From assembly GCF_000022145.1 (NCBI RefSeq), contig NC_011891.1, positions 1,934,001 to 1,998,000 of the forward strand: 64,000 nucleotides of DNA, written 5' to 3'. This DNA comes from Anaeromyxobacter dehalogenans 2CP-1. GTDB taxonomy: Bacteria; Myxococcota; Myxococcia; Myxococcales; Anaeromyxobacteraceae. The notes below the pieces were generated by a model, which was given only the letters and a program-made list of their open reading frames with translations, did not search any database and had not been told where the DNA came from. Positions 19,927 through 25,695 of this stretch are shown here, one piece after another; positions within the stretch are counted from its first letter, which is position 1; each line of letters begins with the position of its first letter. The position numbers and the translations under genes are program-made.

Positions 19927-21534
19927 ATGGCGACCCCTGGCGACCGCGGCGGGCCCGACCTCGATCCGGCCGACCTCGCGGCGGCCCTCCGCGTGCTGGC
20001 GCGGGTGGCCGACGACCGCACCGTGCTCGCGCGCGTGGACGCGGACGCGCGCGTGGCGCTGCAGCGGCTCGCCGGCGAGGTGGCGCGGCCGGATCTCAAG
20101 GCCCGCAAGAAGCTGCAGAAGGCCCTGCTCAAGCAGGAGCACCGCGCGCGCCGCTCCCGGGACGCCGACCTGCGCCGGGACACCGGCATCCAGCGGCTCC
20201 GGCAGGCGCCGGTGTTCGTGGCGCCGCTCCCCGAGCTGCCGCCGCCCGGCGCCGACGCGTCCGGCTGGTGGCCGCGGCTGCCGGGCGCGGGCGACGCCGC
20301 CGCGGGCGCGGACACCGCCGCGGAGAACACCGGGCCGGAGCTGTCGGAGCCGCGCAAGTGCTACGTGTGCAAGGCGACGTTCCGCCGCCTGCACCCGTTC
20401 TACGATCAGCTGTGCCGCGCCTGCGGCGACGAGAACCAGGCGCGCCGCACCGCCGGCGTGGACCTGCGGGGCCGGGTGGCGCTCGTCACCGGCGCGCGCG
20501 TGAAGATCGGCTACCAGGCGGCGCTGCTGCTGCTCCGCGCCGGCTGCACCGTGGTGGCGCTGACCCGGTTCCCGCGCGACGCCGCGGCGCGCTACGCGCG
20601 CGAGGCGGACTTCGAGCGCTGGCGGGACCGGCTCTCCATCCACGGCGTGGACCTGCGCCACACGCCCAGCGTGGAGCTGCTCTGCCAGCGCCTCGACGCG
20701 ACGCTGCCGCGGCTCGACTTCCAGCTCCACAACGCCTGCCAGACGGTGCGGCGGCCGCCCGGGTTCTACGCGCACCTGCTCGAGGCCGAGCAGGTGGCGC
20801 CCTCCGCGCTGCCGCCGGCCGAGCGCGCGCTGCTGCGCGACTGGGAGGCGCTCCGCGACGCGCTCCGCGGCCAGGGCGGCGCGGCGGGCGTGACCGGGCC
20901 GGCGCTCCTCTCGCAGGCGCGCAGCGACGCGGACCTGCTCCTGCCCGGGAAGAGCGCGTTGGAGCTGTTCCCGCGCGGCGTGCTCGACCAGGACCTGCAG
21001 CAGGTGGACCTGCGCACGCACAACTCCTGGCGCCTCCGGCTGCACGAGGTGCCCACGCTGGAGCTGCTGGAGGTGCTGCTGGTGAACGCGACGGCGCCGT
21101 TCGTGATGGCGTCGCGGCTGAAGCCGCTGATGACGCGGGCGCCCGGGGCGCCCGAGGGGACCGCCACCAGCGGCGACGCGGCCCGCCACGTGGTGATGGT
21201 GTCGGCGATGGAGGGGCAGTTCTACCGCGAGCACAAGACCGACCGGCACCCGCACACCAACATGGCCAAGGCGGCGCTCAACATGCTGGTGCGGACCAGC
21301 GCGGCGGACTACGCGAAGGACGGGATCTTCCTGAACGCGGTGGACACCGGCTGGGTCACCGACGAGGACCCGGCCCACCTCGCCGCGCGCAAGGTGGAGG
21401 AGCACGCGTTCTCGCCGCCGCTCGACGTGGTCGACGGCGCGGCGCGCATCGTGGCGCCCATCTTCGACGGCTTCCGCACCGGGCGGCATCCGGCCGGGCA
21501 GTTCTTCAAGGACTACCGGCCGGTGCCGTGGTGA
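19927..21534 (+). CDS. SDR-fold oxidoreductase with N-terminal zinc-knuckle extension
   Basis: A 535-residue protein. The first ~140 residues form a charged helical region; Cys145, Cys148, Cys163 and Cys166 (CYVC and CRAC) make a four-Cys zinc-binding candidate; then comes an SDR Rossmann domain from about residue 180 (VALVTGARVKIGY, TGxxxxIG dinucleotide motif). Ser426 (VMVSAME) fits the catalytic Ser. At the usual YxxxK position, judged by the following KAALNMLVRTSAADYA and NAVDTGWV segments, the sequence is Thr444-NMA-Lys448, so the catalytic Tyr is missing there; an alternative Tyr433-REH-Lys437 lies 11 residues upstream. Start ATG at 19927 excludes an arginine-rich leader. Function unknown. 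Confidence 0.85.
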   Translation: MATPGDRGGPDLDPADLAAALRVLARVADDRTVLARVDADARVALQRLAGEVARPDLKARKKLQKALLKQEHRARRSRDADLRRDTGIQRLRQAPVFVAPLPELPPPGADASGWWPRLPGAGDAAAGADTAAENTGPELSEPRKCYVCKATFRRLHPFYDQLCRACGDENQARRTAGVDLRGRVALVTGARVKIGYQAALLLLRAGCTVVALTRFPRDAAARYAREADFERWRDRLSIHGVDLRHTPSVELLCQRLDATLPRLDFQLHNACQTVRRPPGFYAHLLEAEQVAPSALPPAERALLRDWEALRDALRGQGGAAGVTGPALLSQARSDADLLLPGKSALELFPRGVLDQDLQQVDLRTHNSWRLRLHEVPTLELLEVLLVNATAPFVMASRLKPLMTRAPGAPEGTATSGDAARHVVMVSAMEGQFYREHKTDRHPHTNMAKAALNMLVRTSAADYAKDGIFLNAVDTGWVTDEDPAHLAARKVEEHAFSPPLDVVDGAARIVAPIFDGFRTGRHPAGQFFKDYRPVPW

Positions 21535-21540
21535 GGTCGG

Positions 21541-22025
21541 GGCGGGGCGCAGCCCCGAGCGCGGCAAGGCCGCGCCCGCGGGGACGTCGTGCGAGCCCGC
21601 GCAGGCGGGCGCACGAGGTCACGGGACCCGCGCAGCAAGGTGGGGCGGGGCGCAGCCCCGTACGCGCGGCAAGGCCGCGCCCGCGGGGACGTCGTGCGAG
21701 CCCGCGCAGGCGGGCGCACGAGGTCACGGGACCCGCGCAGCAAGGTGGGGCGGGGCGCAGCCCCGTACGCGCGGCAAGGCCGCGCCCGCGGGGACGTCGT
21801 GCGAGCCCGCGCAGGCGGGCGCACGAGGTCACGGGACCCGCGCAGCAAGGTGGGGCCCCGCGGAGCTCCGCTCCGTGGGGCGGGGCGCAGCCCCGTACGC
21901 GCGGCAAGGCCGCGCCCGCGGGGACGTCGTGCGAGCCCGCGCAGGCGGGCGCACGAGGTCACGGGACCCGCGCAGCAAGGTGGGGCCCCGCGGAGCTCCG
22001 CTCCGTGGGGCGGGGCGCAGCCCCG
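21541..22025. repeat. Tandem array of 105-bp palindrome-rich repeats
   Basis: Four near-identical units: 21541-21643 (103 bp, lacking two bases), 21644-21748, 21749-21853 and 21879-21983 (105 bp each), plus a 17-bp partial unit at 22009-22025. A 25-bp segment separates units 3 and 4 (21854-21878) and recurs after unit 4 (21984-22008). Each unit contains nested hairpins: GGGGC-GCA-GCCCC, GCGGC-AAG-GCCGC, and a longer CGTGCG/CGCACG stem enclosing GCCCGC-GCAG-GCGGGC. The array fills the space between convergent genes (SDR and CBS), so it would lie in both 3' regions. Not a CRISPR: no unique spacers. Confidence 0.95.
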
Positions 22026-22030
22026 TCGGA

Positions 22031-23579: not shown

Positions 23580-23646
23580 CCCGGCGCGGAGCCGGGTCCC
23601 CGCGGCGCTTTGTCGGCGCCGGCCGATGGTGTATGGCTACGGCCCC

Positions 23647-24429
23647 ATGAAGACCCTGACCGAGCTGAGCGGCACCCTCATCCGGACGGCGGCGGCGGCG
23701 ATCGCGGCCGCGCGGCGCAACCTCCCGGCCGAGCCCGAGCCCGTCGCGGCGGCGCCTGCCCCCGCGGCCACGACCGAGGCGGCGCCCGATGCCGCTCCCG
23801 AGGCGGCACCGGCCGAGGCGGCACCGGCCGAGGCGGCACCGGCCGAGGCGGCACCGGCCGAGGCGGCACCGGCCACCGACGCGCAGCCCGAGGCGGCCGC
23901 GGCGGCCGCTGCGCCCGCTGCGCCGGCGCCCCAGGGCGAGAGCGAGGCCGTGAAGGCCGCGCTCGACGCGGCGGTGTCCGGGGCGACCGGGGTGTCCGGC
24001 GATCGCCTGGCGCTCCTCCGCGCCGCGGTCGAGGTGGTGGGACGCCGCGCCGAGGACGTCCGGCTGGTCCGGGTCTTCGGGGTCGAGGAGCCCGTCGCCG
24101 GCGCCAAGACGCTCGGCGACCACCAGTTCCTGGTGGACCTGTTCCCCGCGAGCATGAAGCAGACGGCCGGTGGCGACCGCGACGATCGCGGCGGGCGCCG
24201 GGGTGGTCGCGGCGGCCGGGGCGGGGGAGGCGGCGGCCGCGGCGGTGGCGGCGGCGGCAAGGGGGCCGGGGCGGCGACCGGCGGCTTCTCCATGGACTCG
24301 CTGCGCGAGGACCGCCGCAACGAGCGCGGCGGCGGGCGCGGGCGGCCGGGCGGCGGCGGCCGGCGGCCGGGTGGCCCGGGCGGCGGGCGCGGTCCCGGCG
24401 GCCCCGGCGGCGGCGCGCCGAAGAAGTAG
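23647..24429 (+). CDS. Low-complexity protein with AEAAP repeats and RGG-rich tail
   Basis: A 260-residue protein of three parts. Residues about 1-100 are Ala/Pro/Glu-rich with five exact AEAAP-type pentads; residues about 101-175 form a compact, conserved-looking domain (SEAVKAALDAAVSGATG to GDHQFLVDLFPASMKQ); and the last ~85 residues are Gly/Arg-rich with many RGG and GRG tripeptides. RGG tails bind RNA in eukaryotic and some bacterial proteins. The gene is 12 bp before a RIO-type kinase gene on the same strand, so the two are surely co-transcribed. The ATG at 23647 is chosen over 23626 because MKTLTELSG starts the ordered segment. No known family is recognised. Confidence 0.8.
   Translation: MKTLTELSGTLIRTAAAAIAAARRNLPAEPEPVAAAPAPAATTEAAPDAAPEAAPAEAAPAEAAPAEAAPAEAAPATDAQPEAAAAAAAPAAPAPQGESEAVKAALDAAVSGATGVSGDRLALLRAAVEVVGRRAEDVRLVRVFGVEEPVAGAKTLGDHQFLVDLFPASMKQTAGGDRDDRGGRRGGRGGRGGGGGGRGGGGGGKGAGAATGGFSMDSLREDRRNERGGGRGRPGGGGRRPGGPGGGRGPGGPGGGAPKK
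23800..23874 (+). repeat. Five perfect 15-bp tandem repeats inside a gene
   Basis: The 15-mer GAGGCGGCACCGGCC is present five times without a mismatch. It encodes Ala/Glu/Ala/Ala/Pro pentads in the low-complexity region of the RGG protein. The unit is a multiple of three, so copy-number change would keep frame. The perfect identity points to recent expansion. Confidence 0.95.
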
Positions 24430-24441
24430 CGCCTCTCGCGC

Positions 24442-25695
24442 ATGCACGACCCCCTCGCACCGCTCCTCGCCGACGGCGTGGTCGAAGCCGTCGGCGCGCG
24501 CCTGAAGACCGGCAAGGAGGCCGAGGTCTGGCTCGTCCAGTCCGGCGGCGAGGTGGTCGCGGCCAAGGTCTACAAGGCCCGCCAGACCCGCACCTTCCGC
24601 AACGACGCGGCCTACCGCGAGGGCCGCCGCGTCCGCGACAGCCGCACGCAGCGCGCCATGGACCGCGGGAGCCGCTTCGGCCAGGCGGCCGCGGAGGAGG
24701 CGTGGAAGGCGCGCGAGGCCGACGCGCTGCACGCGCTCCACGCCGCGGGCGTGCGGGTCCCGCGCCCGGTGCTGTTCTACGAGGGCGTGCTGCTCATGGA
24801 GCTGGTGGTCGGGCCCGACGGCCACCCCGCGCCGCGCCTGGTGGACGCGCGCGTGCCGCGCGAGCGCGCCGCCGCGCTCTACGCCGACCTGCGCGCGCAG
24901 GCGGTGCGCATGCTCTGCTGCGACCTCATCCACGGTGACCTGTCACCGTACAACGTGCTGCTCGGGCACGACGGCCCGGTGGTGATCGACTTCCCGCAGG
25001 TGGTCGGCGCCGCGCACAACGGGCAGGCGGAGGCGTTCTTCCGCCGCGACCTCGAGAACCTGCGCCGCTTCTTCGCCGCCCTCGATCCCGCGCTCCACGC
25101 CGCCGCCGGGGACGCACGGGAGATCTGGCGCGCGTATGTCCGGCGCGAGCTGACCCCCGACTTCGTCCCGTCCGGCCGCGCCCCGGAGCCCGCGCCCCGC
25201 GCGCCCGCGCACCCGTCCGCCCGCGCCGGGGGTCATGGACAGCCGCCGCGGCCGCACGCCGCGGCCCCGCGCGCCGCACCCGCGCACCCGGCGCCTGGCC
25301 CCGCGCACCCGACGCCCGCGCCCACGCACCCGGCGCCCCCGCGCGCTGCGCCCGCGCATGGCGACGCGCCGCAGCGGCGCGGGCCCGGGAACCGGCAGCG
25401 CGGACCGGGCGCCGGCGACCGCGGCGGCCGCCCGAGCGACCGCGGCGCCCGCCCTGCAGACCGCGGGGGCCGCCCAGCCGATCGCCGCGAGCACGGAGGG
25501 GATCGCGGCGGCGAACGGCGCCGCGCCGGCGCCGCCGCCGGACCCGAGGTGATCCGCGTCGAGCGCCTGCCGCTCGCCGCCCCCCGCGACCGGCCGGGCC
25601 ACGCGCAGCCGCGCCCCGGGTCAGGGGCGCCCTCCCAGCACGGTCGCGGGCCCGGGCCCCGGCCCGGGGCCCCGCGGCGCGGTCCGCGGCGCTGA
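24442..25695 (+). CDS. RIO-family serine kinase with basic Gly/Pro/Arg tail
   Basis: A 417-residue protein whose first ~230 residues are a RIO1-like kinase: nucleotide loop KTGKEAEVW (22-30), an ATP-contacting lysine in AAKVYKA (Lys42), catalytic loop HGDLSPYNVLL (His164, Asp166, Asn171), and metal-binding Asp183 in VIDFPQVV, the RIO replacement of DFG. The last ~170 residues are rich in Pro, Ala, Arg and Gly with several DRGG units, like the RGG tail of its operon partner. RIO kinases act in small-subunit ribosome maturation in archaea and eukaryotes; the bacterial role is poorly defined. Substrate may be the neighbouring RGG protein or ribosomal RNA-protein complexes (inference). Confidence 0.9.
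   Translation: MHDPLAPLLADGVVEAVGARLKTGKEAEVWLVQSGGEVVAAKVYKARQTRTFRNDAAYREGRRVRDSRTQRAMDRGSRFGQAAAEEAWKAREADALHALHAAGVRVPRPVLFYEGVLLMELVVGPDGHPAPRLVDARVPRERAAALYADLRAQAVRMLCCDLIHGDLSPYNVLLGHDGPVVIDFPQVVGAAHNGQAEAFFRRDLENLRRFFAALDPALHAAAGDAREIWRAYVRRELTPDFVPSGRAPEPAPRAPAHPSARAGGHGQPPRPHAAAPRAAPAHPAPGPAHPTPAPTHPAPPRAAPAHGDAPQRRGPGNRQRGPGAGDRGGRPSDRGARPADRGGRPADRREHGGDRGGERRRAGAAAGPEVIRVERLPLAAPRDRPGHAQPRPGSGAPSQHGRGPGPRPGAPRRGPRR

Follow-up and report, generated by a model that had tools for sequence, protein, structure and literature searches.

Kinases of the RIOB type occur in some eubacteria, where their function is undetermined, and carry two signatures, SGKEA and IDxPQ (PMC7749174). Together with the NCBIfam family NF041645 ("PA4780 family RIO1-like protein kinase") and the structurally solved RIO1 kinases of archaea and eukaryotes (PDB 1zp9 and 4otp), they are the closest described relatives of one of the two genes considered here; the other is best compared with the general class of RGG/RG-box RNA-binding proteins. 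We analysed a stretch of 64,000 nucleotides of the Anaeromyxobacter dehalogenans 2CP-1 genome (the window; NC_011891.1, positions 1,934,001 to 1,998,000 of the forward strand), in which a gene for a 260-residue protein with an Arg/Gly-rich tail (the RGG gene; 23647..24429, + strand, ATG at 23647, stop codon at 24427-24429) precedes a gene for a RIO kinase of 417 residues (24442..25695, + strand, ATG at 24442, stop codon ending at 25695). Both genes are coding according to a codon model, and the RGG stop codon is separated from the kinase start on the same strand by 12 bp. A first-pass annotation had described a low-complexity protein with an RGG tail lying 12 bp before a RIO1-like kinase, and our analysis agrees with it on the protein, which does contain a low-complexity linker and an RG tail, on the gap, and on the kinase.

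The kinase matches the RIO1 family of Pfam (PF01163) with an E-value of 9.5e-38 and 130 bits, against a Pfam cut-off of 22, and is the one PF01163 gene found in the genome. It can be aligned with the solved archaeal and human Rio1 proteins over residues 7-213, a region that includes the P-loop (K22-TGKEA), K42, the H164-GDLSPYN171 stretch and IDFPQ at residues 182-186, all encoded within 24442..25695 on the + strand. K22, G24-A27, K42, D166, N171, D183 and Q186 are invariant across 18 aligned kinase proteins. Judged by its residues (the catalytic Lys K42, D166 and N171 of the HxD..N element, and the metal-binding Asp D183), the kinase appears to be catalytically intact; it shares the catalytic Lys, Asp and Asn and the metal Asp with archaeal and eukaryotic RIO1, but has IDFPQ where these have IDMGQ. 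Its TGKEA and IDFPQ correspond to the RIOB signatures, with a T/S difference at one position, and most close relatives have SGKEA. The match to NF041645 covers the full domain (2.6e-86), and the RIO domain, the GKEA P-loop and the IDxPQ metal-binding signature are all shared with that family. These features place the kinase among the bacterial RIOB kinases, a known kind, and near the PA4780 family, from which it differs in its long basic tail, in a score below the curated cut-off (289 bits vs 350), and in its position behind the RGG gene in its clade. The PA4780 cut-off is passed in 7 of 195 Myxococcota genomes, whose kinases possibly represent a sub-branch different from that of the window kinase.

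The kinase tail (25177..25692, + strand) comprises 172 residues with a net charge of +21, and its Pro/Arg/Ala/Gly composition marks it as disordered. At its C-terminal end it contains a recurring PEVIRVxRP-like stretch that is also found in many relatives. Myxococcal RIO kinases carry long, basic and repeat-rich tails, whose length is very variable and can exceed 400 residues. Although tail alignments are uncertain, dN/dS for the tail was 0.6-0.7 in two distant comparisons and 0.29 in a near one, compared to 0.05-0.26 for the kinase domain. The basic Arg/Gly/Pro tail noted in the first-pass annotation is present, but its sequence is under loose constraint only.

The RGG protein consists of two confidently modelled parts and two disordered ones. 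An N-terminal strand-helix (residues 1-30, beginning MKTLTELSGTLIR; 23647..23736, + strand) is conserved in relatives, has AlphaFold pLDDT values of 81-97, and belongs to the ordered domain; it is followed by a variable, acidic Ala/Pro/Glu linker (residues 31-95; 23737..23931, + strand) with pLDDT below 50, dN/dS of 0.2-0.55 and 15-bp tandem repeats in the underlying DNA. The core domain (residues 96-167; 23932..24147, + strand) is predicted to form two helices and three strands in the order alpha-alpha-beta-beta-beta, with pLDDT above 90 in the full model and a mean of 85.5 when modelled alone. Most of the strand-helix and core taken together exceeds a pLDDT of 90, while the linker and most of the Arg/Gly-rich tail (residues 176-260; 24172..24426, + strand) are predicted to be disordered. 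Within the tail, the motif GGFSMDSLREDRRNERGG (24280..24333, + strand), in which G, F, S, M, D and R are invariant throughout the family, is modelled as a short helix with modest confidence.

Relatives of this protein were found in 34 of the 195 Myxococcota genomes: 17 in Anaeromyxobacter's own family, 11 in a second family of the same order (f7), and 6 elsewhere. The architecture is the same in 25 close relatives, and more distant ones are spread across the phylum; throughout the family, an N-terminal TLTEL/TVTQF strand-helix is followed by a variable linker of acidic character, the core closes with a hairpin of the VRLVRVF...YVVD type, and the invariant GxFSM[DE]...DR motif lies in the RG tail. 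One genome of Anaeromyxobacter's family (G011) has a second, shorter copy that lacks the RG tail (L070:8979-9467) and is possibly decaying. Searches of Pfam and NCBIfam with the RGG protein and its relatives, and of PHROGs with the RGG protein, gave no family above cut-off, and no RRM, KH or DEAD domain was found in the protein with Pfam. The closest candidate, DUF3606 (PF12244), was rejected: it scores 12.2 bits against a cut-off of 24.3 and has no member among 31 relatives, and the likeness, a weak helix match seen in 16 of 27 core sequences with a best E-value of 0.0025, covers 16 residues of one helix in the protein encoded here. Sequence comparison with the PDB gave weak or low-complexity matches only, and structural searches with Foldseek and VIA-align, using the full model and the core, returned nothing with E below 0.001 or Z above 3.5; such an absence of structural matches is no proof of a new fold. 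Taken by sequence and predicted structure, we regard the RGG proteins as a conserved, unnamed and undescribed Myxococcota family with a confidently predicted domain.

The composition of the RGG tail is kept across the phylum, and the tail is under purifying selection: the two comparisons that were informative, those with G005 and G003, gave it a dN/dS of 0.15-0.17, compared to 0.12-0.15 for the core. Since the two values are close, we consider the tail a selected feature of the protein. The tripeptide RGG itself occurs six times, compared to a mean of 3.9 in shuffled tails, and six or more copies were reached in 258 of 2000 shuffles; the count is no higher than the Gly and Arg composition gives. 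The protein has the Arg/Gly-rich disordered region that defines RGG-box proteins, and it resembles the general class in that this tail is conserved and under purifying selection, but differs from it in that the tail belongs to a protein whose folded domain has no recognised relative. Its composition suggests that the protein probably binds RNA via the tail.

How firmly the two genes belong together can be judged from their distribution. Adjacency is found only in five genomes of Anaeromyxobacter, a genus of soil bacteria, with same-strand gaps of 12 (G000, the window genome), 7 (G002), 29 (G003), 27 (G005) and 27 bp (G007). In a further member of the genus (G006) the two genes lie ~417 kb apart, and in another (G004) the kinase is present and the RGG gene was not found. 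No adjacency was seen outside the genus, where at least 16 genomes have both genes apart: nine in Anaeromyxobacter's family, four in f7 and three more distant ones. One genome (G021), whose kinase is truncated at the end of a contig, was left out of this judgement. A strong kinase match is missing in 11 of the 34 RGG genomes, one of which (G020) has part of a kinase gene at the end of a contig, so that ten count as lacking the kinase; single absences are weak evidence because many of the surveyed genomes are drafts or MAGs, from which GC-rich genes are easily lost. With kinship ignored, the co-occurrence of the two genes over the 195 genomes (kinase present/missing in 23/11 genomes with the RGG gene vs 92/69 without it) is not significant (Fisher p = 0.34). 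The genes are apart or alone in almost all relatives, so they do not form an obligatory two-part machine, and relatives with both genes do not generally keep them adjacent. Of the first-pass annotation, the two-gene unit stands as an operon, but its reading as a module is not supported; a lack of conserved adjacency in relatives, named there as evidence against the idea, is what we observe outside one genus. What was taken for a module is thus an operon at the level of one genus, joining a known kind of kinase to a conserved but unnamed RG-tailed protein. The surroundings of the pair differ between G000/G002 and G003/G005/G007, yet the pair is kept, so co-expression may bring some advantage. 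At each of the 11 f7 loci examined (L086-L096), a gene for vitamin B12-dependent ribonucleotide reductase and the RGG-family gene are divergently oriented; this neighbour was not seen outside f7, Anaeromyxobacter included.

The upstream regions offer a possible account of how the pair arose. Before the RGG gene we recognised by eye, from its conservation, a promoter-like element (23610..23637, + strand) composed of TTGTCG (23610-23615) and, after 16 bp, an extended -10-like TG-TATGGC (23630-23637). An element of the form TTG[CT]CG ... TGTATGGCT is found upstream of most Anaeromyxobacteraceae RGG genes and ends ~9 bp before the ATG, so that the RGG mRNA may be nearly leaderless. Scanning with a strict sigma-70 consensus found nothing, and the putative promoter is therefore inferred from conservation only. 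Three distant RGG-family genes (L159, L160 and L161) share a GTGATAGGCGGCG stretch directly before the ATG, which suggests nearly leaderless mRNAs there as well. In the vicinity of the RGG gene, a search for RNA elements gave no Rfam match except a tRNA. Unlinked kinase genes have a promoter-like site of their own: in Anaeromyxobacter's family, TTGACC occurs 39-55 bp before the start in seven of nine of them, followed by TCTAAT/TCTACT or a CAATA stretch, whereas it occurs in none of the five paired kinases (expected frequency 0.007 per 90 bases). The short gap and the missing TTGACC suggest that the paired kinase is under the RGG promoter and would be co-transcribed with the RGG gene. In a phylogenetic tree the paired RGG genes group together (support 81/88), while the kinase tree leaves open whether the pair arose once; most likely, the kinase came under the RGG promoter once and recently.

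Based on this, we suggest that, within a single Anaeromyxobacter clade, two independently evolving genes came to form an operon, and that the RGG protein serves independently as an RNA-binding chaperone or adaptor; we give this reading a probability of slightly under 60%. The basic RG-rich tail around the invariant FSM motif would most likely bind RNA, and the folded domain together with the FSM motif would most likely bind a protein partner. In most of the Myxococcota that have it, the RGG protein would work by itself; in the paired genomes the kinase would be read from the RGG promoter and so be co-expressed, without the RGG protein having to be its target. A role in ribosome maturation would be an analogy with RIO1/RIO2 of archaea and eukaryotes, and none of our observations links either protein to ribosomes.

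The same operon could be read as a functional pair in Anaeromyxobacter, in which RIOB phosphorylates the RGG protein, for example on the Ser of the FSM motif, and thereby controls its binding to RNA or the ribosome. The spacing of 7-29 bp held in five genomes despite rearranged surroundings, the intact kinase residues, and the basic disordered tails on both proteins are all compatible with such a relationship. However, genomes that have no kinase keep the FSM Ser just as strictly, so that the kinase does not account for its conservation. The separate positions of the two genes in one congener and in at least 16 genomes of other genera, and the lack of significant co-occurrence, also speak against this reading, which we consider unlikely. 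A further reading, which we find quite improbable, is that the RGG family is a new bacterial RNA-binding adaptor with an unseen fold that organises RNA in Myxococcota, and for whose regulation by phosphorylation RIOB was recruited in Anaeromyxobacter.

A further alternative concerns the nucleic acid that is bound. The helix-helix-strand-strand-strand order of the core recalls HU, which is why we considered that the protein might bind DNA rather than RNA, as a nucleoid-associated protein descended from an HU-like ancestor; a TGxS stretch is likewise reminiscent of HU, the Foldseek list includes HU chains among its low-ranking entries, and the basic tail would suit DNA as well as RNA. Against this, hhalign profile-profile comparison with the HU-family proteins of Anaeromyxobacter and other myxobacteria gave a probability of 4.5% over 27 columns, and no HU-like chain gave a structural Z higher than 2.0, a value reached over 41 residues. 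HU ancestry seems improbable to us, and HU/IHF profile similarity, with hhalign probabilities of 4.5% and 0.4%, was rejected. It could also be argued that the low-complexity tails are functionless by-products of a very GC-rich genome, as the other frames of the kinase-tail DNA likewise read Arg/Pro/Ala, dN/dS of the kinase tail is 0.6-0.7 in distant pairs, and the RGG tripeptides do not exceed what composition gives. For the RGG tail, the low dN/dS and a composition and an invariant FSM motif kept across families of the phylum speak against this; as an explanation of both tails we hold it to be very improbable, and much of the kinase tail is the one part to which it could plausibly apply.

Were the kinase nonetheless to regulate the RGG protein as an adaptor, the latter would be the first natural substrate for bacterial RIOB kinases; bacterial RIO kinases are widespread, and in this operon one of them has a candidate partner that can be tested. 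Apart from the kinase, the RGG family is a reasonable subject for structural and RNA cross-linking work in Myxococcota, because it is conserved, has no name, and contains a confidently predicted domain to which our searches found no relative.

Elsewhere in the window, an array of GC-rich repeats of 105-130 bp, 96-100% alike, lies between two genes at 21534-22026. The repeat has 57 matches, mostly scattered over the genome, and its unit folds as RNA better than all 200 shuffles (z -3.1); it looks like a dispersed REP/BIME-like repeat.
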